A stretch of DNA of 64,000 nt from Devosia sp. Root635 (lineage in GTDB: Bacteria; Pseudomonadota; Alphaproteobacteria; Rhizobiales; Devosiaceae). A model generated the notes under the pieces. The model was not told the origin of the DNA. It searched no databases and worked only from the letters and a program-made list of their open reading frames with translations. The position numbers were made by a program, and so were the translations under genes. Below, in pieces: positions 43,511-63,032 of the stretch. Positions within the stretch are counted from its first letter, which is position 1; each line of letters starts with the position of its first letter. The DNA lies in assembly GCF_001427605.1 (NCBI RefSeq), contig NZ_LMGZ01000022.1, positions 62,001 through 126,000 on the forward strand. Reading direction: 5' to 3'.

Positions 43511-43583
43511 CGCCGTTTGGCTTCTGGCCAGAGGTGTTCTCTGCCAGAAGCCCTCATGGTGCCGAGATGTAGGAACGAATCTC

Positions 43584-43921: not shown

Positions 43922-44247
43922 TGGCTGGCGAGCCAAGCGGCCTATTGAAAGCAATCGAGACACTGGCCGCTTCAATCAAGAGTCGGCCGGAGGCAGCGCT
44001 GGCCGGTATCGCCATACTGGCCCCTGCCTTGCTTATTCCAATGGGTGTTAACCAATGGATGGCTATGATTGCCCCAATTGGTGTTTATATCATCTACTGC
44101 GGACGGTCGGTGATGGCCGAGCGCCACAAAGAACGGATAGCGGAGATGAAGATTGAAGCTGTCCAGGCTGCCGGCGACAAGCGTATCACCGATTTGGCCG
44201 AAAAGTACCTGAAACGCTTGCCGGAAGGAGGCAAAGACAATGACTGA
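43921..44247 (+). CDS. Small membrane protein with coiled coil
   Basis: The 108-residue product has a central hydrophobic region that reads as two short membrane helices (ALAGIAILAPALLIPMGV and MAMIAPIGVYIIYC) followed by a charged coiled coil (MAERHKERIAEMKIEAVQAA). The layout suits a holin-like or accessory phage membrane protein. It starts on the stop of the preceding short frame and overlaps the next gene by eight bases. Confidence 0.55.
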   Translation: MAGEPSGLLKAIETLAASIKSRPEAALAGIAILAPALLIPMGVNQWMAMIAPIGVYIIYCGRSVMAERHKERIAEMKIEAVQAAGDKRITDLAEKYLKRLPEGGKDND

Positions 44248-44800
44248 TCTCTGGTTCCTCTACCCTGTCGCGGTGCTGGCAACTCTTGCGATCATGTACG
44301 CCACCCACACCATCAATCGCGCGTCGCACCGCCGACAGCACGACCTCGCCGCAGCGGCTGAAGCAATCAAGGCGCACTACGATGCCCTTTACGAGCTTCT
44401 CGACGACGACGATGTGCCGGAAAATCTGAAATCTGCTGCCTATGCCTTTCACAAGTCCGTGACGGACCGGGGTGTGGCCTTGGAGATTGCGAACTTCGTC
44501 TGCTCTGACGCGGAGATTGAACCTACCGATGCCATGGTGCAATTCGACAAGGACGTCGAGGCATTCCGGCTTACCAACCGTCCAGCCTACGATCGGTTCA
44601 GAACGATTATCTCCAGCGGCATGGCGGCGATGCTTCTGCGCTGGCCGGAGACTGCGGACGTATTTGAGCGGGCTGCCTTCGAGGCCGCCATCGAGTCTGA
44701 GCGGCAGCGCGAAATCTCGAATGCCGTTGTGGTACGTAGTGTCAGATCGAACAAGAACCACGACGATCCACACTTCGGCGGCACGTTGGCTACAGCCTAG
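44240..44800 (+). CDS. Membrane-anchored hypothetical protein
   Basis: The 186-residue product has one N-terminal membrane helix (LWFLYPVAVLATLAIMYA) and a cytoplasmic helical domain (KAHYDALYELLDDDDVPENL; DKDVEAFRLTNRP). No family is recognised. It ends 4 bases before a strong terminator, so it closes the operon that starts at 43142 or 43584. Confidence 0.55.
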   Translation: MTDLWFLYPVAVLATLAIMYATHTINRASHRRQHDLAAAAEAIKAHYDALYELLDDDDVPENLKSAAYAFHKSVTDRGVALEIANFVCSDAEIEPTDAMVQFDKDVEAFRLTNRPAYDRFRTIISSGMAAMLLRWPETADVFERAAFEAAIESERQREISNAVVVRSVRSNKNHDDPHFGGTLATA

Positions 44801-44804
44801 CCGA

Positions 44805-44834
44805 GAAAGCTCCGCCGCGGCGGAGCTTTCGTTT
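44805..44834 (+). terminator. Intrinsic terminator
   Basis: GAAAGCTCCGCC and GGCGGAGCTTTC form a perfect stem and are followed by GTTTTCC. It lies right after the stop at 44800. It is the clearest intrinsic terminator in the window. Confidence 0.8.
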
Positions 44835-44890
44835 TCCATGATCGCTCACGCGCGTATTACTCAATACCAATCTCTGAATAGGCTCTGAGT

Positions 44891-45094
44891 TCAGTGATTA
44901 TCGGCGCCCGGTCGTCCACCAATGACGACCGCCGCTGCATGCAACATCATAGCGCCCGCGATTGCGATAGCAGTGACGACGGGTCGCGCCTGACCGCCCG
45001 CCAGGGGCGCCAACACAAGCGTTGCGACCACGGACACAGCTACGCCGTTCAGGAACTGGGCCGCAGTTCGTCTCGTCTCCCGATTAAGCCTCAT
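44891..45094 (-). CDS. Small two-helix membrane protein
   Basis: The 67-residue product has two membrane helices (FLNGVAVSVVATLVLAPLAG and VVTAIAIAGAMMLHAAAVVI) after a basic start (RLNRETRRT). The ATG has an excellent AAGGAGAAG site. It faces the gene at 45181 on the other strand and shares a promoter region with it. Confidence 0.55.
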   Translation of the reverse strand: MRLNRETRRTAAQFLNGVAVSVVATLVLAPLAGGQARPVVTAIAIAGAMMLHAAAVVIGGRPGADNH

Positions 45095-45180
45095 CGCTCT
45101 TCTCCTTGCTGATGTCGCAAGGATACATCCTCTGGCATGAGCGGGGATTATGGGGATAAGCTCAGCTAGCGGAGGTGGCC

Positions 45181-45462
45181 ATGAAAGCACTGGTGGACCG
45201 GCTGAGTGCCGAGCTCTCGACCAAGTACATCCAATATCTGGAAACATTAATGGTCGACCTGTGGAGCGAGGCCGGCTTCGTGGAGTTTCGCGCCGGCTTT
45301 TCCTTGCGCCGAGACCATCAACTCCGGTCGTTCACCGTCAAAGTCGAAGCGGACGCGGGCCAAACTGCCGAAGAGCGAGAGCTGCTAATCGTCGTGGTGT
45401 TCGACGAGATCGAGGAGCAAATCGACATGGCCATCGCCGATGGCCTGGTGGATGCGAACTGA
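45181..45462 (+). CDS. Hypothetical protein
   Basis: The 93-residue product looks like a compact alpha/beta domain (LMVDLWSEAGFVEFRAGF, SFTVKVEADAG, LLIVVVFDEIEEQIDMAIAD). The ATG at 45181 follows GGAGGT; an in-frame GTG lies six bases upstream. The stop overlaps the next ATG by one base (TGATG). Function unknown. Confidence 0.5.
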   Translation: MKALVDRLSAELSTKYIQYLETLMVDLWSEAGFVEFRAGFSLRRDHQLRSFTVKVEADAGQTAEERELLIVVVFDEIEEQIDMAIADGLVDAN

Positions 45463-45662
45463 TGACCAATAAGGTGCCCAGCCGCCCTGCCCGCGTCCCC
45501 AACACCGAATCCGACGAGCGCCGGCGGGAGAGGATCGAGCGCGAGGCCATCCTGACCGAACAGCGCGCGTTCCTCGACAGCTTCGAGCGGCAGGTAGCGG
45601 AGCTTGAGGCTAAAGCCACCGGCCATGCTTGCGATGCGCCCAAGGATTCGGCGGGCCGATAG
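45462..45662 (+). CDS. Small charged helical protein
   Basis: The 66-residue product is mostly a charged helix (DERRRERIEREAILTEQRAF and SFERQVAELEAKA). It is coupled to the preceding gene by a one-base overlap. Function unknown. Confidence 0.5.
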   Translation: MTNKVPSRPARVPNTESDERRRERIEREAILTEQRAFLDSFERQVAELEAKATGHACDAPKDSAGR

Positions 45663-45752
45663 GGTCTCGCCCGGCCTCTCGGTCGCGCTTGGCCTTACGC
45701 TTGGCCTTGATGTTGTCCATGGCCTGAGACTGCACCAGGAGGATCTGCGAGC

Positions 45753-45908
45753 ATGAACATCTTAGAATTCGCCGGAGCTAGCTTTTTTGCCGTAGGCTGC
45801 TGCCTTGTATTCGCATGCTGGAGACTTGGAGCGGCAGGTGACATCGCCTTGCTGTTTGCTGCAGCTGGCATACCGCTGGCGATGGTAGGCACTGCCTATC
45901 TCACCTGA
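45753..45908 (+). CDS. Very small two-helix membrane protein
   Basis: A 51-residue frame starts at an ATG ten bases after AGGAGG. The product is almost entirely hydrophobic with two helices (FAGASFFAVGCCLVFACW and IALLFAAAGIPLAMVGTA). The ribosome binding site and hydrophobic pattern support translation. Confidence 0.5.
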   Translation: MNILEFAGASFFAVGCCLVFACWRLGAAGDIALLFAAAGIPLAMVGTAYLT

Positions 45909-46021
45909 TGGCGGCCAACGCTAAGCCGCGAAAGCGACATTGGCGCGTCTTATGGGCTACAAGCCCCCGCACCTTGATAGGTCGATTCCTGCTCATTTGG
46001 CGGGCGGTGTTGGTTGGCCGC

Positions 46022-46234
46022 TCAGAAGCTGTCGTCGGATAACTCGTCGTCGATCTCCGCGTCTTGCTCTCCGGCTCGCCGAAGGAATAGAAACAGGACC
46101 AAACCGATAAGAAGGAGCGTCATCATTATGACGCTGTACGGCACTATCAGATCATATCCATAGGAAAGAACCATCAACGCCAGGATTATCGCGGTTACCA
46201 GCACTACATAGATATCCTGTCTCGTCCCGCTCAT
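46022..46234 (-). CDS. Small two-helix membrane protein with acidic tail
   Basis: The 70-residue product has two membrane helices (IYVVLVTAIILALMVLSYGY and SVIMMTLLLIGLVLFLFL) and an acidic tail (EQDAEIDDELSDDSF). The ATG at 46234 follows GGAGGAG at good distance. It is divergent from the polysaccharide operon. Confidence 0.6.
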   Translation of the reverse strand: MSGTRQDIYVVLVTAIILALMVLSYGYDLIVPYSVIMMTLLLIGLVLFLFLRRAGEQDAEIDDELSDDSF

Positions 46235-46324
46235 GTCCAAACTCCTCCAAACCATTACTTTTAACTGAAACCGAGAAATCGTCAGCGTTGTGGATTGCGC
46301 AATTAAGTAACGATTGATCTAGCA

Positions 46325-46648
46325 ATGGACGTCCGTCGCGCATTCTGGCAGAGCACGATCCTATTTTGGTTCAATACGTCGCGAGCGCACCTGATGCAAC
46401 AAATGCAACGCCGGGTTTTCGAACTGCACCGACCGGATGGCGGCCTCAAAATGGTAACCGTAGGCTACAGCGATGGGGTGGCTGACGTGATTGTCGAGGA
46501 AGTCGACCCGATAGGAGGAAAGCTGGCGGAGCGGCGGCAACAACTCACCTACTCAGGCAAGCTTGGCTTCAAGGTATACGCCTTTGATGTCGAGGTTATA
46601 AGCAGGGGACGTTTCGGATTGGCGAAAAAGACGGTTTGGCGCTTTTAG
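46325..46648 (+). CDS. Hypothetical protein at the head of the polysaccharide operon
   Basis: The 107-residue frame encodes a beta-rich product (LKMVTVGYSDGVADVIVEEV; GFKVYAFDVEVISRGR) with no recognised domain. It lacks a clear ribosome binding site, and an internal ATG at 46391 is an alternative start. It overlaps the start of the acyltransferase frame. It may be a genuine small gene or the end of a lost one. Confidence 0.4.
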   Translation: MDVRRAFWQSTILFWFNTSRAHLMQQMQRRVFELHRPDGGLKMVTVGYSDGVADVIVEEVDPIGGKLAERRQQLTYSGKLGFKVYAFDVEVISRGRFGLAKKTVWRF

Positions 46649-47253
46649 CTGAGTTGTTAGGCATAGTTCTTCAATCAAAATACCATGGTGTCGCGTTGAA
46701 GCGGTTTGCAGCAAAAGCCTTCCAGGCGCTCTCTAGGCTCTACAGCATTCGTGGCAATGTGCACGTGGGTAAGAACGTTCATATTGGCATTCTGTCCCTC
46801 CTGTGGGCGCCAACGCGCTTGGAGGTGGGAGACCAAACTTATATCGGAAAGCACTGTACCATTCAGGTAAATGGGCGGATTGGTCGAGGGGTAGTCATAG
46901 CCAACAACGTGGGTATCGTTGGTCGGATCGACCATGAATATCGTGAACCCGGGGTACCTGTACGAGACGGGCGCTGGGTTGGGACGGATACGCACCTCGC
47001 GCAACTGCCAGAAAATCGGGTAGAGGTAGGCGACGATGTCTGGATCGGCTTTGGAGCCATCGTGCTCTCCGGCGTTTCCATCGGGACAGGCGCCATTATC
47101 GCGGCAGGCTCAGTTGTGACGAAGAGCGTTCCTGCTTTCGCCATCGCAGCGGGTGTTCCCGCTCGGGAAGTAGCAAAACGTTTCGATGGCAACGCCGCCG
47201 ACATCGAAAAACACTTGGCAATGCTGAATTACCGCTACGGAGTGGCACAATAA
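46636..47253 (+). CDS. Left-handed beta-helix acyltransferase (CysE/LacA/WbbJ-type)
   Basis: The 205-residue protein is a hexapeptide-repeat acetyltransferase: RGNVHVGKNVHIGILSL, EVGDQTYIGKHCTIQVNGRI, and the C-terminal DDVWIGFGAIVLSGVSIGTG followed by AAGSVVTKSVP and AAGVPAREVAKR. A GRIDHEY segment sits where the loop with the catalytic His is expected. It probably O-acetylates a sugar of the polysaccharide. The start is uncertain: no ATG is available near the N-terminus and a TTG at 46636, or another at 46654, must be used. It is the first clear gene of an eight-gene operon with 0-4-base gaps or overlaps. Confidence 0.8.
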   Translation: MALLAELLGIVLQSKYHGVALKRFAAKAFQALSRLYSIRGNVHVGKNVHIGILSLLWAPTRLEVGDQTYIGKHCTIQVNGRIGRGVVIANNVGIVGRIDHEYREPGVPVRDGRWVGTDTHLAQLPENRVEVGDDVWIGFGAIVLSGVSIGTGAIIAAGSVVTKSVPAFAIAAGVPAREVAKRFDGNAADIEKHLAMLNYRYGVAQ

Positions 47254-47256
47254 ATT

Positions 47257-48399
47257 ATGCGACCAAGCGTTTCCTACGTGTTTCCTACATCGCACAAGTT
47301 TCGTGTGCCCTTTCACGAGCGACTTCGTGAGGAGCTAGACGCGCGCGGTATAGATTACAAATACATCTATTCGGAAAACGACACTAATGACGGTAAGGGA
47401 GACGTACAAGCACCGCTAGGGGCAATTTCGGTCCCGTTGATCACCTGGCGGTGGGGGCGGCGTCGCATATCGTTCCAACGCGCGATGGCTGCCACCAAAA
47501 ATGACGACTTGGTGATCCTGCAGCAGCAGAACAATCTGCTCGGAAACTACCCCATCCTCTTGAGCCGGCGCGTACAAGGAAAGAAGGTTGCACTTTTTGG
47601 GCATGGCAAAAACTTCCAGTCCTCGAGTCCCAATGGGTTGGCTGAGACGTTTAAGCGCTGGTGGTCACGGCGAGTAGATTGGTGGTTTGCATACACAGTG
47701 GAATGCGCCCGCGTCGTCCAACATATGGGATTCCCCGCCGACAAAATAACGGTGTTCAACAACGCCATCGATGTGTCTTCAATTTCCGCTGAGATGGCTA
47801 GTCTCAGCAAGGAACATCTCTCCAAACGGAGGGATGCCGACTTTCATGGATCGCAAAACATCGGCGTTTATGTCGGAAGTCTCTATGCCGGTAAACGCAT
47901 CCAGCTTCTGCTGGACTCGGCTGACAAAATCAGAGAGGCCATACCCGACTTCCACCTGATTGTGATCGGTGGCGGGCCAGAAACGGCACTCGTTGAACGG
48001 GCTGCACTATCGCGGCCATGGCTGCATTATGTTGGACCGAAGTTCGGTCTCGCTAAAACCGAACTTGTGGCCTTGGGGGACGTCGTTCTCATGCCCGGAG
48101 CGGTTGGGCTCGTCGTTTTGGATGCTTTTGCATACGGGTTGCCGCTCGTTACCACCCGCAGCGCCAAACACGGACCAGAGATTGCATATCTGGTCGACGG
48201 AGAAAACGGCGTGATTGTCGAGAATGACACCGACTATCCTGCGGCCGTAGTTCATTTGCTAAAAAACTCGGATGAACGAATGAGGCTCGCGGAAAATGCG
48301 GCGAGCTGTTTGCAAATTTATAACATCGAGAACATGGCCAAAGCCTTTTGCAATGGCATCCTGGCCGCCCTCTCTCACGATGGAAAGACCCATGATTAA
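47257..48399 (+). CDS. Glycosyltransferase, GT4-type
   Basis: The 380-residue protein has two Rossmann-like halves. The C-terminal half shows NIGVYVGSLYAGKRIQLLLD, then FHLIVIGGGPE and the GT4 E-x7-E-like region VGLVVLDAFAYGLPLVTT. GT4 enzymes are retaining transferases that add a sugar from a nucleotide donor to the lipid-linked repeat unit at the inner membrane. No membrane helix is seen. It starts three bases after the acyltransferase gene and its end overlaps the dehydrogenase start by eight bases. Linkage and sugar cannot be predicted. Confidence 0.85.
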   Translation: MRPSVSYVFPTSHKFRVPFHERLREELDARGIDYKYIYSENDTNDGKGDVQAPLGAISVPLITWRWGRRRISFQRAMAATKNDDLVILQQQNNLLGNYPILLSRRVQGKKVALFGHGKNFQSSSPNGLAETFKRWWSRRVDWWFAYTVECARVVQHMGFPADKITVFNNAIDVSSISAEMASLSKEHLSKRRDADFHGSQNIGVYVGSLYAGKRIQLLLDSADKIREAIPDFHLIVIGGGPETALVERAALSRPWLHYVGPKFGLAKTELVALGDVVLMPGAVGLVVLDAFAYGLPLVTTRSAKHGPEIAYLVDGENGVIVENDTDYPAAVVHLLKNSDERMRLAENAASCLQIYNIENMAKAFCNGILAALSHDGKTHD

Positions 48400-49744
48400 T
48401 ATGCAGTTTGTCAAAAGCGACTTATTGGCATCTCTTCAGAGCACCATAAGCAATCGGACAGCAAAGGTGGGTGTAATTGGCCTGGGTTACGTCGGGCTTC
48501 CCTTAGCTGCCGCGGCGGCGCGCGCCGGCTTCCCGACATTGGGTTTCGACGTAGATCCCGCGAAGATTGACGAGATTGCCGCTGGGCGATCGTACATCGG
48601 GGCAGTAACCGACGACGAGCTGACCCAACTGGTCGAAACAGGACGGCTCGCGGCAACATCGGCCATGACAAGGCTAACCGAGGTTGACCTCATTGTTATC
48701 TGTGTGCCGACGCCGCTAACGAAGCATCGAGAGCCGGACACTTCCTATATCGAGAAGACTGGCGCGCAGATCGCGTCCATCCTGCGCCCGGGGCAAGTAG
48801 TCGTGCTTGAGTCCACGACCTATCCCGGTACAACGACGCAACTTCTACGACCAATCCTAGAATCCGGAGGGCTGCAATCAGGAAGGGACTTCTTCCTAGG
48901 ATTCTCACCTGAGCGCGAGGATCCAGGTAACGCTACGCACCGAACCGCTACCATTCCGAAGATTGTCTCTGGCGACGGGGACGAAGCTAGCGCGGCGATC
49001 CATGACTTCTATGCAAGCATTGTGGACAAGGTTGTGTCGGTAAGTTCGCCAGACACCGCCGAGGCCACAAAACTTACTGAAAACATATTCAGGGCAGTGA
49101 ACATTGCCTTGGTAAATGAGCTCAAGGTTGTCTACGACGCCATGGGAATTGACATCTGGGAAGTTATCGACGCAGCAGCAACAAAGCCCTTTGGATTCAT
49201 GCCGTTCTATCCAGGGCCGGGACTTGGCGGGCACTGCATCCCGATTGACCCGTTCTATCTTACTTGGGCATCAAGGGCATACGATCTTCCTACCAAGTTT
49301 ATCGAACTCGCAGGCGAGATCAATGTGGCGATGCCTCGGTACGTCATTGGCAAGGTGGAGGAAGCACTCGGAGACAGGTTCAAAAAGTCACTGCACGGTG
49401 CCTCGATCTTGATCATCGGACTCGCTTACAAGAAGAACGTAAGCGACATTCGCGAGAGCCCCAGCCTAAAGCTGATGGAACTCATCGAGGACCGCGGGAG
49501 TCACGTAGACTTCGCAGATCCTCATGTACCGATCATCGGCATGAGCCGGGAACATGCAAATTTGGCGGGAAAGGAGGCAATACCGATCACTCCGGAAACG
49601 ATCTCCAGGTACGATGCAATACTCATCGCTACGGATCATGATAGCATCGACTATAGCGTGATTAGCGGAGCCCGCTTGATCATCGACACCAGGAACGCGA
49701 TGGCGCGACGGAACCTTTCCGGCGATAACGTAGTAAAGGCCTAA
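48392..49744 (+). CDS. UDP-N-acetylhexosamine (UDP-GlcNAc/ManNAc) 6-dehydrogenase
   Basis: The 450-residue protein belongs to the UDP-glucose/GDP-mannose dehydrogenase family. An N-terminal NAD-binding motif (VGVIGLGYVGLPLA), ICVPTPL, ESTTYPGTT, FSPEREDPGN, the KLTENIFRAVNIALVNEL helix and the active-site Cys in GPGLGGHCIPIDPFYL are all present. FSPER(E/V)DPGN and the sequence around the Cys fit the WbpA/TviB branch, which oxidises UDP-GlcNAc or UDP-ManNAc to the uronic acid. The product polysaccharide is therefore probably acidic. The ATG at 48392 overlaps the GT4 stop; an ATG nine bases later is also in frame. Confidence 0.88.
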   Translation: MINMQFVKSDLLASLQSTISNRTAKVGVIGLGYVGLPLAAAAARAGFPTLGFDVDPAKIDEIAAGRSYIGAVTDDELTQLVETGRLAATSAMTRLTEVDLIVICVPTPLTKHREPDTSYIEKTGAQIASILRPGQVVVLESTTYPGTTTQLLRPILESGGLQSGRDFFLGFSPEREDPGNATHRTATIPKIVSGDGDEASAAIHDFYASIVDKVVSVSSPDTAEATKLTENIFRAVNIALVNELKVVYDAMGIDIWEVIDAAATKPFGFMPFYPGPGLGGHCIPIDPFYLTWASRAYDLPTKFIELAGEINVAMPRYVIGKVEEALGDRFKKSLHGASILIIGLAYKKNVSDIRESPSLKLMELIEDRGSHVDFADPHVPIIGMSREHANLAGKEAIPITPETISRYDAILIATDHDSIDYSVISGARLIIDTRNAMARRNLSGDNVVKA

Positions 49745-50539
49745 GTGTCGATGACCTCAAATTTGGTAGAACCTCAAAGCGAAATCGCTCGATTTCGCGT
49801 GCTGGGGGTGCCGGTGAGTGTCGTAAACATGCGGCGCGCCGTTGACGTCGCCGTTGCATGGGCAAGAGAAAACAGTCCGCGTACTATTTTTGTGCGCGAT
49901 GTGGCGAGCCTCATGCTGGCGGTTGATCAACCGAAATTCTGTGCTTTGCACGGTGAAGCTTCGCTGGTAGTGCCAGACGGACAGCCGCTTGTGTGGCTGG
50001 GCAAAATTAGCAGCCACAGTGCAATCGGCCGGGTCGCTGGTGCGGATTTTGTAGACGCGGTCTGTTCGGCTACGAGCCGAACAGACCTGACCCACTTCTT
50101 CTATGGAGGCAAGCCCGGGGTTGCGGAAAAAGCGGCGGACAAACTTCGCGCGAAATACCCCGGCCTCAAAATAGCCGGGACACTGACCCCGCCCATGCGC
50201 GACATCGACGCGACAACGACCTTCGACGAAAGCCAACTCGCCGAACTGGCTACGATACGTGACGCACACCCAGACTTCGTCTGGATAGGAATCTCTAGCC
50301 CAAAGCAGGACTACTGGATGATGAAGGCCGCGCCACTAATTGGTCGCGGGGTCTTCGCCGGCGTGGGTGCTGCCTTCGATTTCCACGCGGGCACAGTCAA
50401 ACGCGCGCCAGCATTCATGAGAAATAGCGGGTTGGAATGGCTACATCGTTTGCTTAGTGAGCCTAGGCGCCTATGGCGGCGGTACTTGCTTCTTGCGCCC
50501 CGGTTTGTCTGGCTTTTGCTCCGATCCAGGAACTCGTGA
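49745..50539 (+). CDS. WecG/TagA/CpsF family glycosyltransferase (GT26)
   Basis: The 264-residue protein shows the family signature: VPVSVVNMRRAV, VVPDGQPLVWLGK, THFFYGGKPGVAEKAADKL, DFVWIGISSPKQDYWM and GVGAAFDFHAGTVKRAP, with a basic C-terminus ending in a membrane-seeking LLAPRFVWLLLRS. These enzymes transfer ManNAc(A) or related sugars to undecaprenyl-linked GlcNAc. The presence of a UDP-HexNAc dehydrogenase just upstream suits a ManNAcA-type donor. The frame begins with GTG directly after the dehydrogenase stop; an ATG six bases later is in frame. Confidence 0.88.
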   Translation: MSMTSNLVEPQSEIARFRVLGVPVSVVNMRRAVDVAVAWARENSPRTIFVRDVASLMLAVDQPKFCALHGEASLVVPDGQPLVWLGKISSHSAIGRVAGADFVDAVCSATSRTDLTHFFYGGKPGVAEKAADKLRAKYPGLKIAGTLTPPMRDIDATTTFDESQLAELATIRDAHPDFVWIGISSPKQDYWMMKAAPLIGRGVFAGVGAAFDFHAGTVKRAPAFMRNSGLEWLHRLLSEPRRLWRRYLLLAPRFVWLLLRSRNS

Positions 50540-51139
50540 ATGCAGATCCTGCAGAAAGTGCTTAGCGCCAGGGATCAGGTGATGGGCTTGGCTATTTGTC
50601 GGGCTGCAGGGGTGTCTTTGGGAACACGCGTCAGGTTTCATGGCTCCCCCATCGTGACGCGCGTTGAGCATTCAACTATATCGGTCGGCGCCCGCTCGGT
50701 TCTTATTTCGGACAGTAGATACACCGCCCTCGGTGTACGCAGTCCCACCATCCTTCGAACATTAATGCGCGGCGCCCACCTGCGTATTGGCGAAGACGTA
50801 GGCCTAAGCGGCGCGGTCGTTTGCGCAGCGCTCGCCGTGGTAATTGGGAATGGGTGCCTCATTGGTGCCGATGTCATGATCTTCGACAACGACTTTCATC
50901 CTGTAGATCATCCGGCACGCAGATATTCCACCCAAGATGACGCATCGCAGTTTGCTCCGGTGGTCATTGAAAGCAACGTCTTCATCGGAGCTCGATCGAT
51001 AATCTGCAAAGGAGTGACGATTGGGCAAAATTCTGTCATCGGTGCAGGCAGTGTCGTCACGCGATCGGTGCCGGAGAATAGCGTTTATGCTGGCTCTCCT
51101 GCAAAGTTTATCCGTAAGTTAGGCCCGATCCCGGCATGA
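50540..51139 (+). CDS. Left-handed beta-helix acyltransferase (WcaF-like)
   Basis: The 199-residue protein has hexapeptide repeats (EHSTISVGARSVLIS, LRIGEDVGLSGAVVCAALAV, VIGNGCLIGADVMIFDNDFH) and the typical end FIGARSIICKGVTIGQNSVI, AGSVVTRSVPENSVYAGSPA. DNDFH contains the His expected for catalysis in this fold. It probably acetylates a second position in the repeat unit. It is a different subfamily from the acyltransferase at 46636. It follows the GT26 gene directly (stop and ATG adjoin) and overlaps the GT2 gene by four bases. Confidence 0.85.
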   Translation: MQILQKVLSARDQVMGLAICRAAGVSLGTRVRFHGSPIVTRVEHSTISVGARSVLISDSRYTALGVRSPTILRTLMRGAHLRIGEDVGLSGAVVCAALAVVIGNGCLIGADVMIFDNDFHPVDHPARRYSTQDDASQFAPVVIESNVFIGARSIICKGVTIGQNSVIGAGSVVTRSVPENSVYAGSPAKFIRKLGPIPA

Positions 51140-52020
51140 TTACCGAAACCCTCCCTACCATCGCTGTTGTCCTTGCGTGCTACAATCGAAGAGCCTTAAC
51201 CCTTCGATGCCTTGCGTCAATAGAGTCGGCAGGATCCGACCGGGCACGCTTGGTGGTCTACTTGTTTGACGATGCTAGCAGCGACGGCACGTCGGACGCA
51301 GTGCGCGAGAATTTCCCATCAACCAACATCATGGCTGGTGACGGCGAACAGTTCTGGTGTGGCGGCATGCGACAGGCGATGGCGGCCGCTGAGGCCGCCG
51401 GGTACGATTACCTGCTTTGGCTAAATGACGACGTGGAACTGGCACCCGATTTCCTAGATATTCTCCTCAACTCCCACGCCGAGGCACTCCAAAGCCACGG
51501 GCCTGGCCCCCATGTGATTGTCGGCCCGGTGGTAGACCCGGTAAGCAGGGAAATAACGTATTCAGGCTTTCGCAGGACGTCACGCGTACATCCCGCCAAA
51601 CTTGAGCGCGTGGCGCCTTCTGGCACTCTTCAGCAGTGCGACACGATGAACGGAAACTGCGTGCTCTTTCCCGCCTCGATTGTCAGCAAAGTGGGCGAGA
51701 TCGATCGTGCCTACTCACAGCAGATTGGCGATGCTGACTATGGCTATCGATGCATCGAAGAGGGGGCCATGCTCTGGGTCGCCCGGCGGTGGGTCGGAAG
51801 CTGTGTATCAAACAACAGGCGTCTTCGTTGGTCAAATCCGTCGCTAACATTTGGCGAGCGACTGCGTATCCTCAATACGCCCCACGGGCTCCCCATCCGT
51901 CCTTGGCTGCATTTCATGTGGCGCTTTGGTGGACCTCTGGGGGCCGCTCTCCTGACACTTAGCTACGCCAAGTGGTTCGCGCAGAGCCTGCTCCCGAAGA
52001 AGGGGGGCGAAGCTTCGTGA
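51136..52020 (+). CDS. Glycosyltransferase family 2 (rhamnosyltransferase-like)
   Basis: The 294-residue protein is a GT-A fold enzyme: TIAVVLACYNRRALTLRCLA, the donor-binding VYLFDDASSDGTSDAV and the D-x-D equivalent LLWLNDDVELAPDF, followed by MNGNCVLFPASIV and the QQIGDADYGYR catalytic region. It transfers a sugar with inversion onto the growing repeat. A hydrophobic C-terminal segment may contact the membrane. It overlaps both neighbours by four bases. Confidence 0.88.
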   Translation: MITETLPTIAVVLACYNRRALTLRCLASIESAGSDRARLVVYLFDDASSDGTSDAVRENFPSTNIMAGDGEQFWCGGMRQAMAAAEAAGYDYLLWLNDDVELAPDFLDILLNSHAEALQSHGPGPHVIVGPVVDPVSREITYSGFRRTSRVHPAKLERVAPSGTLQQCDTMNGNCVLFPASIVSKVGEIDRAYSQQIGDADYGYRCIEEGAMLWVARRWVGSCVSNNRRLRWSNPSLTFGERLRILNTPHGLPIRPWLHFMWRFGGPLGAALLTLSYAKWFAQSLLPKKGGEAS

Positions 52021-53414
52021 GCTCTGGCCACAGCGCCGTGCGCAGCGTTCTCTTGTATGGTTCGTCCATCGCGCTGGTGAGCGCTTCAAATTTCGCAAGC
52101 GTACCTATCCTCCTCGCGCTGCTGGGCGAAACTGAGTTCGGCATATGGGCGCTGCTCGAGCCTGCACTCCTAGCCTCAATTCCATTGGCGGGGCTCGGTA
52201 TACAGATCGGACTGTTACGGCTGATCAATGGAGGCGGTAGCGATCAAGCTACTGTAGCCGCTCTACTACCAGTCCATGCCGCATTGGCTCTGTGTGTTGG
52301 ATCGGCGGCCGCTATGGTGACCTGGTTCCTAGGTTTCGACGCCTATGTGTGCGCTCTTCTGGGCGCGGCCGTCGCTCTGGAAGGAACAATCTCGTTCTTC
52401 AGCAGCTTGTGGCGAGCCCAAGGAAGACCAAGTCGATTTGCAATGGTGGAGGGAGGGCGAGCGGCGATCCTAGTCGCTGTCCTGACCTGCATATTGTTGT
52501 TCGGGGCACATTTGAGCACCGTTGGCACTTATTTCGAGTTGCGCGTGGGCATGGCACTGCTAGCCCTGCTAGCAGCCGTTGCCGTCGTACGGCCGCATCT
52601 GAGTCCAAACATGTCGGCGGCGTGGTCTGCCTCCTGCTACGGCGTACCTATTGTGCTGGCGTCAGCCTTGTCTGCGCTATTGATTGGGGCTGACCGATAC
52701 GCGGTGGCGTTTTACGAGCCAGAAGCGATTTCCACGTATGTCGCCCATATGAAGCTGGCACAGCTGGTCGCACTTGTCGCAACCGCCTATTTCACTTGGT
52801 TCGGCCCAGTCGCCATTCGCCTCGTAAACGACGATGTCCGCGGATCAAGCGCCTTGTTGGTGAACAGCACCTCGGTATTTTTGCTTGCTCTCCTGATAGT
52901 TTGCGCCAACCTTTTTCTGGTTGCCCCACCGGCTTGGTCGTTGCTGTTTCCGCAGGTAATGTTCAACCAACAGCTGCTCGCGGTGCATTTGGCCGGCACT
53001 GCATTGTTTGCCATGGGAAATCCCCTAAGCATCGGAACTCTGCGAGCCGGACACACCTATCAGGCCGTGATCGTTGCTCTGATCGCAATTTCCGTAGGCA
53101 TGTTTGCCAGTTTTGTGCTGGGCGCTAGCTTTGGCCTGTTGGGCGCAGCATGGGGCCGAATGATGGGTTTAGCCACCTACGTCTTTGCATTCGCGTTGCT
53201 CACACTGCGATCTCTCCCGCTCTCCTACCCCTGGCTAACCTATGCAATTGCAACGGCAATGTGCATATTGGTGGTGTCTGGACTGACAATCATTCTACCC
53301 GGCGACGGGTGGTATGCAGCGTCCGCGAGGATAGCAGTTGCCAATGTTCTCATGGTGCCCCTCTTCGGGTACCTTGCCCTCGCCTTCATAAGAAAGTCCG
53401 ACCGAACCCAATGA
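52017..53414 (+). CDS. Polysaccharide flippase (Wzx-like)
   Basis: The 465-residue protein has 12 or more predicted membrane helices spread evenly along its length, beginning with SVLLYGSSIALVSASNFASV, as in MATE/MOP-superfamily Wzx flippases. It carries undecaprenyl-linked repeat units across the inner membrane. The GTG start overlaps the GT2 stop (GTGA) and its end overlaps the polymerase start (ATGA). Longer open frames upstream lie inside the GT2 gene and are rejected. Confidence 0.85.
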   Translation: MSSGHSAVRSVLLYGSSIALVSASNFASVPILLALLGETEFGIWALLEPALLASIPLAGLGIQIGLLRLINGGGSDQATVAALLPVHAALALCVGSAAAMVTWFLGFDAYVCALLGAAVALEGTISFFSSLWRAQGRPSRFAMVEGGRAAILVAVLTCILLFGAHLSTVGTYFELRVGMALLALLAAVAVVRPHLSPNMSAAWSASCYGVPIVLASALSALLIGADRYAVAFYEPEAISTYVAHMKLAQLVALVATAYFTWFGPVAIRLVNDDVRGSSALLVNSTSVFLLALLIVCANLFLVAPPAWSLLFPQVMFNQQLLAVHLAGTALFAMGNPLSIGTLRAGHTYQAVIVALIAISVGMFASFVLGASFGLLGAAWGRMMGLATYVFAFALLTLRSLPLSYPWLTYAIATAMCILVVSGLTIILPGDGWYAASARIAVANVLMVPLFGYLALAFIRKSDRTQ

Positions 53415-54796
53415 AGGTAAACCGATTACTCTTTTGGGTACTGCTGGCATGCTTGCTGCTCGCTGTTGTCGGGCCACAGGCTGTCTCGGACGACTTCGTG
53501 GCCGCACGGTACCTGCCCTCTCCTCTCAACTACACGCTTTTTTTCTTGTGCATCGTGCTGGTGTGCTTCATTCGCGACCCCCTGTCACGCATTGTAGCGG
53601 CCGGGTGGGCGCTGTGGCTCGTGGTCGGCAATCTATTCATCTTTGGGAGCCACTTTCGACGCAGGCTCGCCGCGCCACTCTACGTTCAAGACGCGAACAC
53701 GTTGTTCCTGATTGCAACAGCGTGCTTTTGCGGCGGAATTGTCGCCTTTGAATTTCTTCGAAGGCCGCAAGTAGAGGGAAAACCAAGAGAACTCTCGAAA
53801 TTAGCAACTCCGGCTGCGCTGGCCTTGTACGCCTTTCCCGTCGTGTACGCCCTCTCGTTGGTGGTGTGGCGGGTGCCCACAATCCTATCCGGCGAGAACA
53901 TCGTTGATTTGATGTACGAGGTTGATAGGGGTCCAGTTTATGCATTGCGCACCGTCCTAATAATGACAACTATCGCAATTGTGGCGTCCACTAAGAGGCT
54001 CGCTCGCCTTGAGCACACCTTTTTCTTGGTAGCTGTTGTTGTCGCTCTTCTCCTGCTGAGCATTTTGGACGGAAAGCGCGATCTGGCGCTAGCTGCCGTA
54101 ATCGGCATGGGAGCGCACTTCCTCATCGTACGGAACGGCAACGTTAGATTTTTTCATATCGTTGCCGTACTAGCCACGGCAATTGCTTATTCAATAATTT
54201 CGGATGTTCGAGCGGCTCGTGTCTCGGGCAATGAGCCAGCAATCCTCTATATCATTACCGCGCTAGGCGTTGAGTACAAGGATTTCGTCCATAGCATAAA
54301 CTACCTTTCTATCGAGAAAATGCAATCTATCGGCTACGATTGGTGGAAATCATCTGTCGCGAGCTTATTGAATCGGAGCCTCTTAGGCGTCTTCGGTGTT
54401 GACAAAGACGCCTGGGTACAAATGGACAGCGCAAGGGCATGGATGCGCGCATACGGAATTACCCTTGGCATTCGAACCGGCATCGTCTCCGAGATGTACT
54501 ACGCCTTTGGGTATTTCGTATTTGCCGCTACCGCTATTCTCGGTTTCCTCCTAGCGTTCATTGTTCGGCGCATCCGGAAAGCTAAGAGCGTGCTCGGCTA
54601 TGTATACTGGCTGGCGATGTTTGCTACCTTCTCAATGTCGATTATGGGCCAGACCACGTCGGTGTTGGGGGCATTTGTTACCCTGACATACGCGGTAGTG
54701 GGTGTTTTCCTTCTGTCGCGTGTTTTCGCTCCTCGGCTACTCTTCGCGCCGAATCCTTATCAGCAACCAACCCCAATACAGGTCGAAGAAGAGTAA
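53411..54796 (+). CDS. O-antigen / oligosaccharide polymerase (Wzy-like)
   Basis: The 461-residue protein has about 11 membrane helices and a large periplasmic loop in its second half (about 265-360, with NYLSIEKMQSIGYDWWKSSV and a following stretch rich in Trp and charged residues). This is the layout of Wzy polymerases. It would join repeat units on the outer face of the inner membrane. It is the last gene of the operon. No chain-length regulator (Wzz/Wzc), exporter (Wza) or initiating transferase (WecA/WbaP) is found, so these must come from the host. The ATG at 53411 is chosen; upstream frame extension lies inside the flippase gene. Confidence 0.82.
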   Translation: MKVNRLLFWVLLACLLLAVVGPQAVSDDFVAARYLPSPLNYTLFFLCIVLVCFIRDPLSRIVAAGWALWLVVGNLFIFGSHFRRRLAAPLYVQDANTLFLIATACFCGGIVAFEFLRRPQVEGKPRELSKLATPAALALYAFPVVYALSLVVWRVPTILSGENIVDLMYEVDRGPVYALRTVLIMTTIAIVASTKRLARLEHTFFLVAVVVALLLLSILDGKRDLALAAVIGMGAHFLIVRNGNVRFFHIVAVLATAIAYSIISDVRAARVSGNEPAILYIITALGVEYKDFVHSINYLSIEKMQSIGYDWWKSSVASLLNRSLLGVFGVDKDAWVQMDSARAWMRAYGITLGIRTGIVSEMYYAFGYFVFAATAILGFLLAFIVRRIRKAKSVLGYVYWLAMFATFSMSIMGQTTSVLGAFVTLTYAVVGVFLLSRVFAPRLLFAPNPYQQPTPIQVEEE

Positions 54797-54843
54797 TCAG
54801 CACGACTGCAGTTCATATCCGCCTCCAAGATGTAAACGCGGGG

Positions 54844-55209
54844 CTACATTGCGCGCCATGCGTTCAACCCAGCGTTGACCAGCCAGATGGTACCCCCCAC
54901 AAAGGCGGCAATCACCAGCCAGCCAATGGCGGCCGCGAGGCCATTCACGCCTGTCCGGAGCCAGCGCAGAAACATGAAGTCCTTCCGGGCCTCGTCCTGC
55001 TGCTGATCACTTTCGACCCTCAGCCCGGCATCGGCCAGAACATCGGCCATGGCGGAACGCATCTGTTTCATTTGCTCGTCGGTGAAGCTCTTGCTGGATT
55101 CGACCAAAGCCGTGAGAACGCGCGACTGATCCTCGCGGTCCTTTTCGAGCAGATCTACGCGCTTTGCCAGGGTCATGCGGGCACGGCCCAGGGTATCGGG
55201 GTTGGACAT
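54844..55209 (-). CDS. Phage membrane protein, holin-like or accessory lysis protein
   Basis: The 121-residue product has a coiled-coil N-terminal half (LAKRVDLLEKDREDQSRVLT and MKQMRSAMADVLADAG) and a C-terminal membrane helix (AIGWLVIAAFVGGTIWLV). It is the last gene of the leftward lysis cluster and might be a holin, antiholin or superinfection protein. The ATG at 55209 follows GGAG. It converges with the polymerase gene. Confidence 0.55.
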   Translation of the reverse strand: MSNPDTLGRARMTLAKRVDLLEKDREDQSRVLTALVESSKSFTDEQMKQMRSAMADVLADAGLRVESDQQQDEARKDFMFLRWLRTGVNGLAAAIGWLVIAAFVGGTIWLVNAGLNAWRAM

Positions 55210-55238
55210 TGGTGCTCCAGTCTTGAGCGGAAGTGAGA

Positions 55239-55457
55239 TCAGGCCGCGCGGCAGGCGGTGAGCTTTTGATAGTGCCGATCCAATTCGACCGCCCAAGCAT
55301 CGACGGCGCTATCGTCAGCAGCTTGCAGGGCGTCCACAGCGGCCACGGGCGGCGGGGCCAGTGCTGGGCAGCTACCGACTATGCGCGTCGTCTGACAGGC
55401 CCCTAAGCCGGTCATAGCTGCGATCAGGATCAATAGCCTGGCGGTCGATTTCATCAT
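55239..55457 (-). CDS. Outer-membrane spanin subunit (Rz1-like lipoprotein)
   Basis: The 72-residue product has a lipoprotein signal with an L-G-A-C lipobox (Cys21), then GSCPALAPPPVAA, a proline-rich stretch usual for Rz1, and a short helix. Rz1 sits in the outer membrane and joins Rz across the periplasm to fuse membranes at lysis. Its first 86 bases overlap the end of the Rz-like gene in another frame, the classical nested arrangement. The start ATG-ATG follows CAGGAG. Confidence 0.75.
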   Translation of the reverse strand: MMKSTARLLILIAAMTGLGACQTTRIVGSCPALAPPPVAAVDALQAADDSAVDAWAVELDRHYQKLTACRAA

Positions 55458-55620
55458 AATGCTCCTGAAGGTTGTCGCGGGCCTTGGCCTGCTCAAGGCG
55501 GGCGGCGTTCTTGCCGTCCTCGCGGATGCGCCAATAGGCGGCGAAGATGGTAGCGATGAACGCACCGGCCGCCAGCAGGTAGAACTTGGTCTTACCGAAG
55601 AATGCCGTGAGCCAGGTCAT
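55372..55620 (-). CDS. Inner-membrane spanin subunit (Rz-like)
   Basis: The 82-residue product has one N-terminal membrane helix (KFYLLAAGAFIATIFAAYW) and a periplasmic coiled coil (GKNAARLEQAKARDNLQEHY). It would be the partner of the Rz1-like lipoprotein encoded in part within it. Its ATG overlaps the endolysin stop by one base (TGATG), placing it in the endolysin-Rz-Rz1 lysis cassette. Confidence 0.75.
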   Translation of the reverse strand: MTWLTAFFGKTKFYLLAAGAFIATIFAAYWRIREDGKNAARLEQAKARDNLQEHYDEIDRQAIDPDRSYDRLRGLSDDAHSR

Positions 55621-56303
55621 CAGCGTGTCGCCTTCCGGATCACGAGGAAGGCAATGGTGACGGCCGCAATGACCATAAGGGCGGCAATGGCGTACTGAAC
55701 CGGACCATTGCCCGAGGCGACAGCCGCTGCGCCGCCCAGCAGCCCGCCACCGGCCGCCATATTCTCGGGCGTCACCAAATCCTTGATCGGATTGCCGGGC
55801 TTGGCCTCGACGGTGCTGGTCGAGACGAATGCGCCACGCGCCCAAAGCCCCGCCTCGGCAGCGCGGCGGTTGATGAGCCCCTGCATGACCTTGCCGTCAT
55901 TGTATTTCCAGCGTGCCAGTTGGCCCGGCACGGCGTTGTAGTCGCCAGCGTTGAGCTTCTTGAGCAGGGTGGAGTTCGAGAAGCCCGGCTTCGACCCGCC
56001 GCCCATGCCGATATTATCGGCAAAGGCTACCAGCGCGCCGAACTGGTTGTCGCTCAGGTCCACCTTGACCAGCCGCTCCACCTGCGCCGCCGTCTCGGCC
56101 AGGCGCGCGGTCAGCAGCGCGGCGGCCTCGCCCTCCGTGATCGTGTCGCCCTTGCGCACCGCCCTGCCCTTGATGCGGGTCTGGCCATAGCCAATGGTCC
56201 ATGGCGTCCCGTCGCGGGAGCCCGGATCGGGATAAGCATTGGGGCGAAACCCCTCCCACTGTTTGACGAGCGAAAGCGTCTCCGCGTTTACCGCGCGAGC
56301 CAT
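55620..56303 (-). CDS. Phage endolysin (GH24 lysozyme) with C-terminal membrane helix
   Basis: The 227-residue protein has a T4/P22-type lysozyme domain: VKQWEGFRPNAYPDPGSRDG with the catalytic Glu (about 17), TPWTIGYGQT with the Asp/Thr pair, GDTITEGEAAALL, LSDNQFGALVAFADNIG and LINRRAAEAGLW. It cleaves the glycan strand of peptidoglycan. After the enzyme domain comes a linker and a membrane helix (YAIAALMVIAAVTIAFLVI), which is unusual in classical endolysins and suggests membrane tethering until lysis. The ATG at 56303 has AGGAGA in front. Confidence 0.85.
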   Translation of the reverse strand: MARAVNAETLSLVKQWEGFRPNAYPDPGSRDGTPWTIGYGQTRIKGRAVRKGDTITEGEAAALLTARLAETAAQVERLVKVDLSDNQFGALVAFADNIGMGGGSKPGFSNSTLLKKLNAGDYNAVPGQLARWKYNDGKVMQGLINRRAAEAGLWARGAFVSTSTVEAKPGNPIKDLVTPENMAAGGGLLGGAAAVASGNGPVQYAIAALMVIAAVTIAFLVIRKATR

Positions 56304-56370
56304 GGTGGTCTCCTATCGATGTTGGAAGTGAGTTACGCTCGCCGGCAGGATTGCTGGCGAGGTGGATCAG

Positions 56371-56508
56371 ATGGCGAAGCGAGAAGTGCGCGAGGGCGAC
56401 CGAATACTGGTCTGGCTCGACGTGACGCGGGTTGCCGCGAACGCTCTAGAGGAACAGGTAGTGACGGTGGACGTGCCGGGTCAGAAGGTCACGGCACCGC
56501 TCAAGTAA
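56371..56508 (+). CDS. Small 45-residue protein, opposite strand
   Basis: A frame of 45 residues starts at an ATG after GAGGTGG. The product is beta-rich and charged (EVREGDRILVWLDVTRVAAN; QVVTVDVPGQKVTAPLK). It runs against the direction of the phage late genes and overlaps the end of the SGNH-type gene by eight bases. It may be a small regulator or moron gene. Confidence 0.45.
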   Translation: MAKREVREGDRILVWLDVTRVAANALEEQVVTVDVPGQKVTAPLK

Positions 56509-57091
56509 TCAGCGGTCCGATGGCGGCCTGCGCCTGAGGAAGTGTAACTCGTTGAATGCCGGCCAAGAGCGGATGCACCGGCTCTGCGGGGTCAAACTCC
56601 TCCGGGTGCAGTGCGGGATCGCCCCAGGCCGTGTAGGCGTCGATGATACCGACATTCGACCGATTGGCTGCCGCAGTTGCATAGGACGCCCAATAGCTCG
56701 CTAGCGAGGGGAACGTCGACGCTTCCGTCGCGGCCTCCAACCGCCACGTTTTGAGCAGGAAAATGGCGGTGTCGGAACGCGCTGCGCGAACGGCATCAAT
56801 CGTTGTGTACATGTTCGTCAGCGACTGTGCCGCCGAAATCCCCAATGACGGCGCCGCGTCCTTGTAGAACGACAGCATCACGGCATCGCAACGCATAGCC
56901 GCCAGTTTCGCGACTACCCCACTTGATATGTCGAGTGATGAGCCGAGCGACGTGCCAAAGCCAATGCGGCGGATGAAGGATCTGCGGCCCGCCTGGAGGT
57001 TGCGGCACATGCGCAGCGGCCAGTCGCGGCAGTTATAGCTTTGCACGTCGCTGGAGCCGAGCAGACCAACGGTGTAGACGGTCTGGGTCAC
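56501..57091 (-). CDS. Phage tail-associated SGNH-hydrolase-like protein
   Basis: The 196-residue protein begins with VGLLGSSDVQSYN, where G-S-S-D stands in the place of the G-D-S nucleophile block, and ends with an EPVHPLLAGIQRV segment that resembles the D-x-x-H block III of SGNH/GDSL hydrolases. Such enzymes in phage tails deacetylate surface glycans. The Ser/Asp order is unusual, so activity is uncertain. The GTG start overlaps the stop of the tail fibre gene by four bases or less. Confidence 0.5.
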   Translation of the reverse strand: MTQTVYTVGLLGSSDVQSYNCRDWPLRMCRNLQAGRRSFIRRIGFGTSLGSSLDISSGVVAKLAAMRCDAVMLSFYKDAAPSLGISAAQSLTNMYTTIDAVRAARSDTAIFLLKTWRLEAATEASTFPSLASYWASYATAAANRSNVGIIDAYTAWGDPALHPEEFDPAEPVHPLLAGIQRVTLPQAQAAIGPLIT

Positions 57092-58236
57092 GCGAACTCC
57101 TCTCGCAGATCAACCCACCCTTGCAGGTAGATATAGATCAGGTTGGTGGCGGTCCGAGGATAAGCGACGTGATAGATTTGGCCCGAGGTGTCGGTCCATG
57201 CGTCGAACCGGCTCCCATCGTTCGAGCCGATCTTTTTGTAGACCTGCGCATCGTACCATTGGGTCGAAACATTGGCGATCGGCCCTACATCTGGATCTCG
57301 GATGATGATCCAGAAGCCCACGTCGGGAGAGGCGGCGCCGAACGCCTGACCGAAGACATTGAGCTTCACGCCCAACGGAACAGGCAGGGCCTTGAGAGTG
57401 AGGTTGTCACCCGCGGCAGCTTCAACGACCGCAAAAGCGTCCAGAAAACGGAACTCGCCGTTCGCATACCAGGTGCCTTTTTTGATGACCCCAGACGCCC
57501 CCGTTGCGAACGCCCCTATCCGCCTGCGCTTCGTAAAGCCTGATGGCATGACGGGGGAGGTCGCGCTCAAGGAGCACAAGAAATCATATGCTCCAGAGGT
57601 GGGATTGTAGATCAGAAAGAGATGGTATCCTGCATTAGCGACGGTTTGCGACCCCACATCGACCATACCGTTTCCGGTGCCAACTGACCACGCAAGGAAG
57701 TTCTTGGTCCAGCCAGTCGGGAGGACCATGTCCATCGTTTGATCCGTAGATCGGCATGACCCAGGGCTGATGTGGATCACGGTGTTCGGCGTAGTTGGGC
57801 TGTTGGAAATCAAAAGCCCGTTGATGGCTCGACCTATCGCGCTGACCATCTCCGTCTTGGGGACCGTGGTCAGTGCTCCTGGGCCACTGAACATTAGGAG
57901 CCGGTTCGCCGATCCAGCCAAGCCCGCAACCGCCTGCAGGTTGCCGTTGGCCAGCTCCGTCAACAGCGCCGTCAGCTTCTGGCTAAACGTCGCCTGCTCA
58001 TTGCGCGGCTCGTAGACGAATGGCTTGGCCCCGGTGTTGGCACCCTGCCATGCCACCTGACCAACGGCGGCCGTGTCGCTGACGGGGTCGGCTGCGAGTT
58101 GCATGCTGCCCAAGCCGGGGATGTTGATGATGCTGCCGGCGCGGTAGCTGGTGAAGGTCGTGCCGACGCCGGCAATGGCCGTCGAACCGTTGGTGAAGGC
58201 GACGGTGCCGGAATTGTTGGGCTCGAAAATGCTCAT
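57088..58236 (-). CDS. Phage tail fibre-like protein
   Basis: The 382-residue protein starts with a tail-fibre N-terminus common in siphophages (FTNGSTAIAGVGTTFTSYRA, with SGTVAFTNGS as a hinge and LGSMQLAADPVSDT following). The middle and C-terminal parts are beta-rich with no recognised enzyme domain. It probably binds a host surface structure. The ATG at 58236 follows GAGCGG. Next in the operon is the SGNH-like gene. Confidence 0.65.
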   Translation of the reverse strand: MSIFEPNNSGTVAFTNGSTAIAGVGTTFTSYRAGSIINIPGLGSMQLAADPVSDTAAVGQVAWQGANTGAKPFVYEPRNEQATFSQKLTALLTELANGNLQAVAGLAGSANRLLMFSGPGALTTVPKTEMVSAIGRAINGLLISNSPTTPNTVIHISPGSCRSTDQTMDMVLPTGWTKNFLAWSVGTGNGMVDVGSQTVANAGYHLFLIYNPTSGAYDFLCSLSATSPVMPSGFTKRRRIGAFATGASGVIKKGTWYANGEFRFLDAFAVVEAAAGDNLTLKALPVPLGVKLNVFGQAFGAASPDVGFWIIIRDPDVGPIANVSTQWYDAQVYKKIGSNDGSRFDAWTDTSGQIYHVAYPRTATNLIYIYLQGWVDLREEFA

Positions 58237-58254
58237 TGGCCGCTCATAGTTTGA

Positions 58255-59082: not shown

Positions 59083-59086
59083 CCGC

Positions 59087-63026: not shown

Positions 63027-63032
63027 GTGCGG

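Follow-up and report, generated by a model that had tools for sequence, protein, structure and literature searches.

A Wzx/Wzy-type polysaccharide operon as probable cargo of a complete-looking temperate prophage in Devosia sp. Root635

Introduction

Several phages carry genes that change the surface polysaccharides of their hosts, and the closest described systems are summarised here. In Pseudomonas phage D3, a unit composed of iap, wzy-beta and the O-acetylase gene oac is responsible for serotype conversion (PMC4815439, PMC11436027), and Acinetobacter prophages, one of which is located in a tRNA-Gly gene, carry wzy1Ph/wzy2Ph or epaA-epaB and alter the structure of the capsule (PMC9241936, PMC13228068). 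P22-type phages possess the gtrABC conversion cassette (PMC11436027), and for cyanophage P-SSM2, which has 24 lipopolysaccharide (LPS) genes in two clusters, a surface change during pseudolysogeny was proposed (PMC2984593). Here we analyze a polysaccharide operon located at positions 46325-54796 of a 64,000-nucleotide stretch of the 344,637-base contig NZ_LMGZ01000022.1 of Devosia sp. Root635, referred to below as the window. The original prediction, made from the sequence alone, described it as a complete Wzx/Wzy operon within a prophage. We estimate at roughly 0.72 the probability that the operon is moron cargo through which the lysogen gains a new surface glycan, the carrier being a temperate phage that looks complete and is inserted in tRNA-Phe.

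Results and Discussion

Gene content of the operon

The region is filled by nine open reading frames (ORFs), all on the + strand, eight of which are of a recognisable kind (Table 1). Neighbouring ORFs overlap or almost abut, with gaps of -8 to +5 bp, and on account of this close packing the layout is that of a single operon. The operon proper consists of the eight genes at 46654-54796, each with a frame open from end to end and spaced by -8 to +3 bp; the 107-amino acid (aa) ORF at its head was without a family match in Pfam, NCBIfam and further library scans. Three starts (46654, 52017 and 53408) were shifted from those of the mechanical ORF list and were preferred because of the shorter overlaps or gaps and the gene calls on an identical IMG/VR copy (L031). 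As the gene caller, a simple script, truncated several operon genes, the families were assigned on longer frames.

All the gene kinds originally proposed, that is a flippase, a polymerase, three transferases, a dehydrogenase and two acyltransferases, were found, the polymerase being only probable. Pfam recognised three glycosyltransferase (GT) families, as expected of the repeat-unit transferases of a Wzx/Wzy operon. A gtr-type cassette does not fit the data, since no GtrA-type family is present among the Pfam matches of 46325-54796 and the GT2-type protein has no predicted transmembrane (TM) segment. An initiator, an exporter, a co-polymerase and a ligase were likewise not seen among these matches. 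The best PDB relatives of the first hexapeptide acyltransferase are Vat, DapD-type, galactoside and maltose acetyltransferases; the solved relatives of the WecG-type protein are ManNAc transferases, with 7mpk as the best; and the PDB search with the GT2-type protein returned no relative. The dehydrogenase (best PDB relative 4r16) scored higher with the UDP-ManNAc/TviB/WecC models, which are of the UDP-ManNAc/GlcNAc type, than with the UDP-glucose dehydrogenase models, all of these scores lying under the models' own cut-offs. Owing to this preference, the repeat unit likely contains a uronic acid of an N-acetylhexosamine (HexNAc).

The assignment of the protein encoded at 52017-53414 as a Wzx-type flippase is well supported by sequence comparison, even though the protein itself has no direct match in Pfam or NCBIfam. 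Among 385 genomes of the class, weak homologues were detected in four genomes besides its own (E values from 5.8e-10 to 6.3e-4). When aligned by hhalign to a profile of three host proteins of the PF01943 flippase type, the window protein together with three remote homologues gave a probability of 94% and an E value of 1.3e-7 over 374 columns. Within this four-member alignment, PF13440 and PF01943 were each matched by three members, and by the window protein in neither case; a search of solved structures with the alignment found nothing. The product of 53408-54796, with its ten predicted TM segments, is a probable Wzy polymerase.

Bounds and modules of the prophage

The operon lies in an element of 49.7 kb (element B), which extends from 41614 to about 91390. 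Its left end is marked by attL, which reproduces the 3' half of tRNA-Phe over 50 bp, and its right end by attR, the exact direct repeat at window-coordinate 91341, outside the window; the intact tRNA-Phe gene is found at that right end, at 91342-91417 (L006:7342-7417). A genome-wide search located the 25-base core of the attachment (att) site, within two mismatches, at three places, and exact 14-base seeds detected no further copy of the core between 41663 and 91340.

To the right of the operon, on the opposite strand, follow the lysis and tail genes. As had to be verified beyond position 64000, the structural and integration genes continue there: PHROGs families for tape measure, tail terminator, head-tail connectors, portal, capsid and the large terminase were matched in the part of element B covered by L005, and an Arc-like regulator and the integrase (89225-90457 in window coordinates, close to attR; phrog_1, 2.3e-62) were matched as well. 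A single open frame was found for each of the genes of terminase, portal, capsid, tail and lysis. No PHROGs match was obtained for nine of the 29 element-B proteins scanned from 54844 rightwards. Taken together, these features describe a complete-looking temperate prophage integrated in tRNA-Phe, in which the operon occupies the stretch between attL and the lysis genes, and in this respect the original proposal was borne out.

Table 1. Coordinates of the operon, of the surrounding prophage features in the window, and of the element-B proteins lacking a PHROGs match (listed by start position or locus coordinate).
Feature	Position	Strand	Evidence
107-aa ORF heading the operon	46325-46648	+	open frame; no family matched
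Hexapeptide acyltransferase 1	46654-47253	+	PF00132, 8.1e-13 (scored on longer frame from 46636)
GT4-type glycosyltransferase (GT group 1)	47257-48399	+	PF13692, 1.2e-17
Nucleotide-sugar 6-dehydrogenase, nearest to UDP-HexNAc dehydrogenases	48392-49744	+	TIGR03026, 2.6e-126, above cut-off; Pfam UDPG_MGDP_dh
WecG/TagA/CpsF glycosyltransferase	49745-50539	+	PF03808, 1.6e-57
Hexapeptide acyltransferase 2	50540-51139	+	PF00132, 7.6e-13
GT2-type glycosyltransferase	51136-52020	+	PF00535, 1.6e-10
Wzx-type flippase	52017-53414	+	profile-profile match, Polysacc_synt homologues; 11 predicted TM segments
Probable Wzy polymerase	53408-54796	+	TIGR04370, 1.8e-7, sub-cut-off; 10 predicted TM segments
attL	41614-41663	.	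50-bp copy of tRNA-Phe 3' half; exact direct repeat with window-coordinate 91341
Two phrog_323 (D5-like transcription regulator) ORFs	41756-43016	-	PHROGs, 9e-11 and 3.7e-5
Two small phage-group genes	43142-43510, 43584-43823	+	homologues in related prophages
Small genes, function unassigned	43921-45662	+	where scanned, no significant PHROGs/Pfam match; no homologues in 166 loci
Small lysis-side genes, convergent to operon	54844-55620	-	homologues in other prophages, some near endolysin
Endolysin	55620-56303	-	phrog_7, 7.3e-51; 91% in G022, 94% in L183
SGNH/GDSL-like hydrolase (weak)	56501-57091	-	PF13472, 0.0022, under cut-off
Tail genes, including J-like protein (59863-62430)	57088-64000, module runs past window	-	PHROGs tail families, 4 of 6 ORFs scanned
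Element-B proteins without PHROGs match	54844, 55239, 56501, 58255, 59087, L005:11731, L005:18993, L006:2262, L006:4518		

Association of both flanks with one phage

The flanking phage genes could in principle belong to two different elements with the operon between them, the case that would contradict the original prediction. Tandem elements do exist at this tRNA-Phe, and the IMG/VR record UViG_2643221580_000003 (59,068 bp, 32021-91088 in window coordinates, its end lying beyond the window) merges a satellite-like element and the prophage into one provirus. The junction at 41614, however, lies to the left of the operon, and no att copy was found between the operon and the lysis genes. Furthermore, when the ten ORFs between attL and the lysis genes, including the 107-aa ORF, were compared with 166 loci, phage-group homologues were obtained for two of them: the ORF at 43142-43510 matches five loci, which correspond to four records (L035 and L187 being one contig), and the ORF at 43584-43823 matches four loci, which correspond to three records (L013 and L038 being one prophage). 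Where an endolysin gene was also found, these homologues are located 153, 169 and 203 bp from it, and the identities of the homologues beside endolysin are 82% (L183), 79% (L184) and 34% (L035). The att evidence and the left-flank homologues thus argue for an operon inside one phage genome; we rejected the reading of two elements, which we regard as highly improbable.

Related prophages and their variable cargo

Relatives of the prophage were sampled by means of the J-like tail protein, which has relatives, many of them weak, in 39 of the 136 host-family genomes, its own included. Its own locus aside, the 20 best neighbourhoods were taken, three of which are truncated to 3-4 kb where the contig stops; six were extended, and viral records were added. 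For four of the six extended relatives the ends could be mapped, giving sizes of 53.9 kb (tRNA-Pro), 52.8 kb (tRNA-Asp), 60.0 kb (tRNA-Tyr) and 38.1 kb (tRNA-Met). The 49.7 kb of the window prophage fall within this range. The closest of these relatives, G022 (60.0 kb), has an endolysin identical at 91% and four connector and tail genes identical at 85-90%, with portal- and capsid-region genes at 28-29%, and shows the same order as the window prophage: attL, accessory genes, lysis, tail, head, integrase, attR.

Related phages lacking the operon, whose existence had to be checked, were indeed found: none of the operon genes occurs in the six extended relatives, and the stretch between attL and the lysis genes holds other genes in the relatives. 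Among 54 relative and flanking loci (942,666 bases, G044 included) the only operon-like match was one WecG gene in G044, on the same contig as a phage terminase and about 37 kb from it, which we judge to lie outside the prophage of that genome because an integrase-like gene is situated between the two. We therefore rejected the possibility that the operon is a common module of this phage group, as it is absent from the relatives examined. It shares with morons the properties of a variable cargo that is absent in relatives and sited outside the essential modules.

Three relatives have smaller sets of glycan- or acyl-modifying genes in the lysis-tail region. L016 has an MBOAT gene between the endolysin and tail genes (L016:10778-12238), L184 has an AMP-binding enzyme and an MBOAT protein encoded beside the endolysin gene (L184:3871-7379), and in L037, whose lysis genes were not identified, genes for a GT2 protein, a VTT protein and a 606-aa protein are located downstream of the tail genes (L037:17456-20810). 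Cargo was annotated selectively, so that the figure of at least three relatives with such cassettes is not a rate. The sibling UViG_2643221674_000003 (L183, L181), with integrase and endolysin identities of 81% and 94% and a different tail set, is by its gene content an example of module exchange; the 1.1 kb available beyond its endolysin gene contain no operon gene.

Rarity of the operon and search for a donor

Among the 136 genomes of the host family, Wzy is present in two including its own, the other showing a weak match of 61 residues, and among the 398 genomes of a phylum sample it is present in its own only. Relatives of WecG are found in 79 of the 136 family genomes, its own included, with a best identity of about 50%. 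For the dehydrogenase, the best identity among 113 relatives is 64%, in Rhizobium and Xaviernesmea records, and neither Wzx nor Wzy is shared by any of the best 80 of these 113 loci (tblastn, 1e-6). No near match to the operon was obtained in plasmids. Phage records contained WecG in 14 cases, every one below 60% identity, and profile scans of viral contigs yielded three records for WecG and 11 for the dehydrogenase, its own included in both; such pattern-based scans overlook distant relatives.

In one of the viral WecG records, L141 (3300010278_000241, 37.8 kb), phage genes adjoin a polysaccharide cluster situated where the contig ends (L141:791-12644), and the terminase match of this record reads through two stops. 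The cluster has the look of flanking host DNA, and we do not count it as phage-borne. In L142, the other viral WecG record, phrog_9 (terminase) was not matched. Of the ten other viral dehydrogenase records, with proteins above 120 aa considered and flanks under 10 kb for several, L170 alone encodes a protein with at least eight TM segments, whose start is similar to that of a uracil-type permease.

These results bear on an alternative in which a bacterial island was inserted into a resident, now stuck prophage, so that the operon was never spread by the phage and its mobility is incidental. The composition of the operon is unlike that of both the phage and the host, with a GC content of 0.553 over its eight genes as against 0.623 for 32 phage late genes and 0.653 for 22 host genes, and the collections searched yielded no further phage carrying it. 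Polysaccharide loci in general, however, are usually low in GC, the phage modules look intact, as do both att sites, the total size is within the range of the relatives, and the corresponding stretch of these relatives holds other genes. We consider such an island unlikely.

Evidence against a functional phage-borne operon

Several results weigh against our interpretation of the operon as a working moron cassette. A scan for sigma-70-like promoters upstream of the operon found none (0.9 expected by chance), and a scan for terminators between the operon and the lysis genes also found none (0.4 expected), so that independent transcription of the operon is unproven. The match of Wzy to TIGR04370, the family of oligosaccharide repeat unit polymerases, reaches 30.5 bits (E value 1.8e-7) against a curated cut-off of 40, and the single-sequence AlphaFold (AF2) models of Wzy and Wzx, with values of 43.7 and 47.9 for the predicted local distance difference test (pLDDT), were discarded and kept out of the fold search. 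No replication gene was found among the element-B genes scanned, the region 82-87 kb being partly scanned with 83313-84755, which spans a locus boundary, left out. The other eight of the ten left-flank ORFs, including both phrog_323 ORFs, had no homologue in the 166 loci. Finally, only a single prophage was found to carry the operon, and conservation can therefore not be used as an argument for its function.

The lack of a promoter motif and the sub-threshold Wzy match would also be expected of silent cargo, either never expressed or blocked in polymerisation because the presumed Wzy is not a polymerase. On the other hand, none of the eight frames is interrupted and their starts lie close to, or within, the preceding gene, which is unexpected in genes that have long been silent, and we find this explanation quite improbable. 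An Rfam scan of 41000-58000 gave no matches.

Host supply and proposed mechanism

It had been proposed that initiation and export are provided by the host. In agreement with this, the host genome has PF02397 initiators at three places (contigs C6, C18 and C2), one Poly_export gene about 2.4 kb from a PF02397 gene on C6, and three proteins with a Wzy_C domain (ligase-like), and none of these genes is located on the prophage contig. The locus is without a PF02397 initiator; initiators of the WecA type (PF00953) were not sought in the genome.

We propose that in the lysogen a promoter of its own would drive the operon and that synthesis would start on an undecaprenyl-PP-sugar made by a host transferase, as the operon has no PF02397 initiator of its own. 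The WecG-, GT4- and GT2-type transferases would then extend this primer to a repeat of about four sugars carrying a HexNAc-uronic acid and acyl groups, Wzx would flip the repeat unit, Wzy would polymerise it, and host export or ligation would place the polymer on the surface. The new glycan would probably draw lipid carrier from the host polymer, with altered phage adsorption as a consequence. In E. coli, two pathways are documented to share Und-PP-GlcNAc, and the common primer can be redirected between them (PMC11813082). We infer that the operon most likely enlarges lysogenic conversion from the modification of a glycan to the synthesis of a complete one.

A more tentative extension, which we hold to be possible but doubtful, is that a cassette lacking only the priming step might, by tapping the undecaprenyl-PP-sugar of the host, both make a foreign polymer and starve the receptor polymer without an Iap-like inhibitor. 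The surroundings of the lysis genes might then be a swap site at which related phages trade surface cassettes, ranging from one acyltransferase to a whole operon.

The product could also be a second, secreted polymer that serves the host as a biofilm or adhesion trait, leaving the host glycan in place and phages unaffected. The host retains initiator and flippase genes of its own (L040), and its single Poly_export gene could serve a secreted polymer. Nothing specific speaks against this explanation, but the converting phages described in PMC11436027 act on receptor surface glycans, and three of the relatives carry the glycan- or acyl-modifying cassettes mentioned above. We regard a secreted polymer as a less likely outcome, to be kept in mind. 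If the operon is active as a moron cassette, one infection could exchange the outer polysaccharide, on which sensitivity to phages, attachment and recognition depend, and surface-polysaccharide loci would have a direct means of spreading patchily among bacteria.

An esterase/lipase-type gene (L005:8411-9664, phrog_19622) is located in the head region of element B. Its product and the SGNH/GDSL-like hydrolase, whose gene lies between those of the endolysin and a tail protein, may be phage-borne deacylases that accompany an operon with two acyltransferases.

Neighbouring elements at the same tRNA

The 50-base att repeat is also present, in register, at 31226, where ARAGORN calls a tRNA-Phe (31226-31299); we interpret this call as a copy of att bearing a tRNA-like arm. 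The 10.4 kb between this copy and attL (31226-41614, element A) form an element in tandem with the prophage and separate from it. Its integrase is 65% identical to that of the prophage, and it encodes a capsid protein (PF05065, phrog_617), a small terminase (phrog_83) and a primosomal protein; no large terminase, portal or tail gene was found among its genes scanned. Element A is possibly a capsid-forming satellite of the window prophage or of a related phage. Hence, of the accessory genes and att copy originally assigned to the left side of the prophage, the att at 41614 is indeed its own left end, and everything further left (31226-41614) belongs to a second, satellite-like element. The original observation is real and was correctly spotted, and it was mis-bounded on the left.

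Still further left, an 18-base partial att copy at 7048 and an integrase gene (29886-30986) adjoining the att at 31226 suggest that yet another integrative element, the third, uses this tRNA (7048-31226). Large genes on the - strand are located at 14212-20599 within it.

Comparison with known systems

Among the systems cited in the Introduction, D3 is a temperate phage that changes a surface polymer by means of a Wzy and an O-acetyltransferase, which is comparable to what we predict for the window prophage with its probable Wzy. Whereas its three genes re-link and acetylate the host repeat, the window operon adds transferases, a dehydrogenase and a flippase, so that the repeat itself would be new. 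The Acinetobacter prophages have a Wzy gene as cargo, comparable to the probable wzy of the window operon; unlike the latter, they use one or two genes that act on host K-units, and no flippase or transferase set is described in the sections consulted. The gtrABC genes form a lysogenic conversion cassette, and the GT2 and VTT set of the relative L037 may work alike, but a gtr cassette attaches a side sugar to a glycan that is already complete, and the window operon has no GtrA-like gene among the families matched. P-SSM2 is similar in its large phage-borne set of surface-polysaccharide genes. It is a cyanomyovirus, not an att-bounded prophage.

Chromosomal polysaccharide loci of the host family contain the same gene kinds, including the widespread WecG relatives, and differ in their low WecG identity and in the absence of Wzy from all other genomes searched save for the one weak partial match. 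In our literature search, of partial coverage, we came across no further temperate phage that carries a complete Wzx/Wzy operon; judged by titles and the beginnings of abstracts, the conversion cases listed comprise few genes, and the parts of PMC3835674 and PMC3493377 consulted do not place the O-antigen cluster in a prophage. Conversion by a phage-borne Wzy and large phage LPS gene sets are thus already known; what appears to be new is the combination of transferases, a sugar-nucleotide enzyme, a flippase and a probable polymerase in an att-bounded temperate phage.

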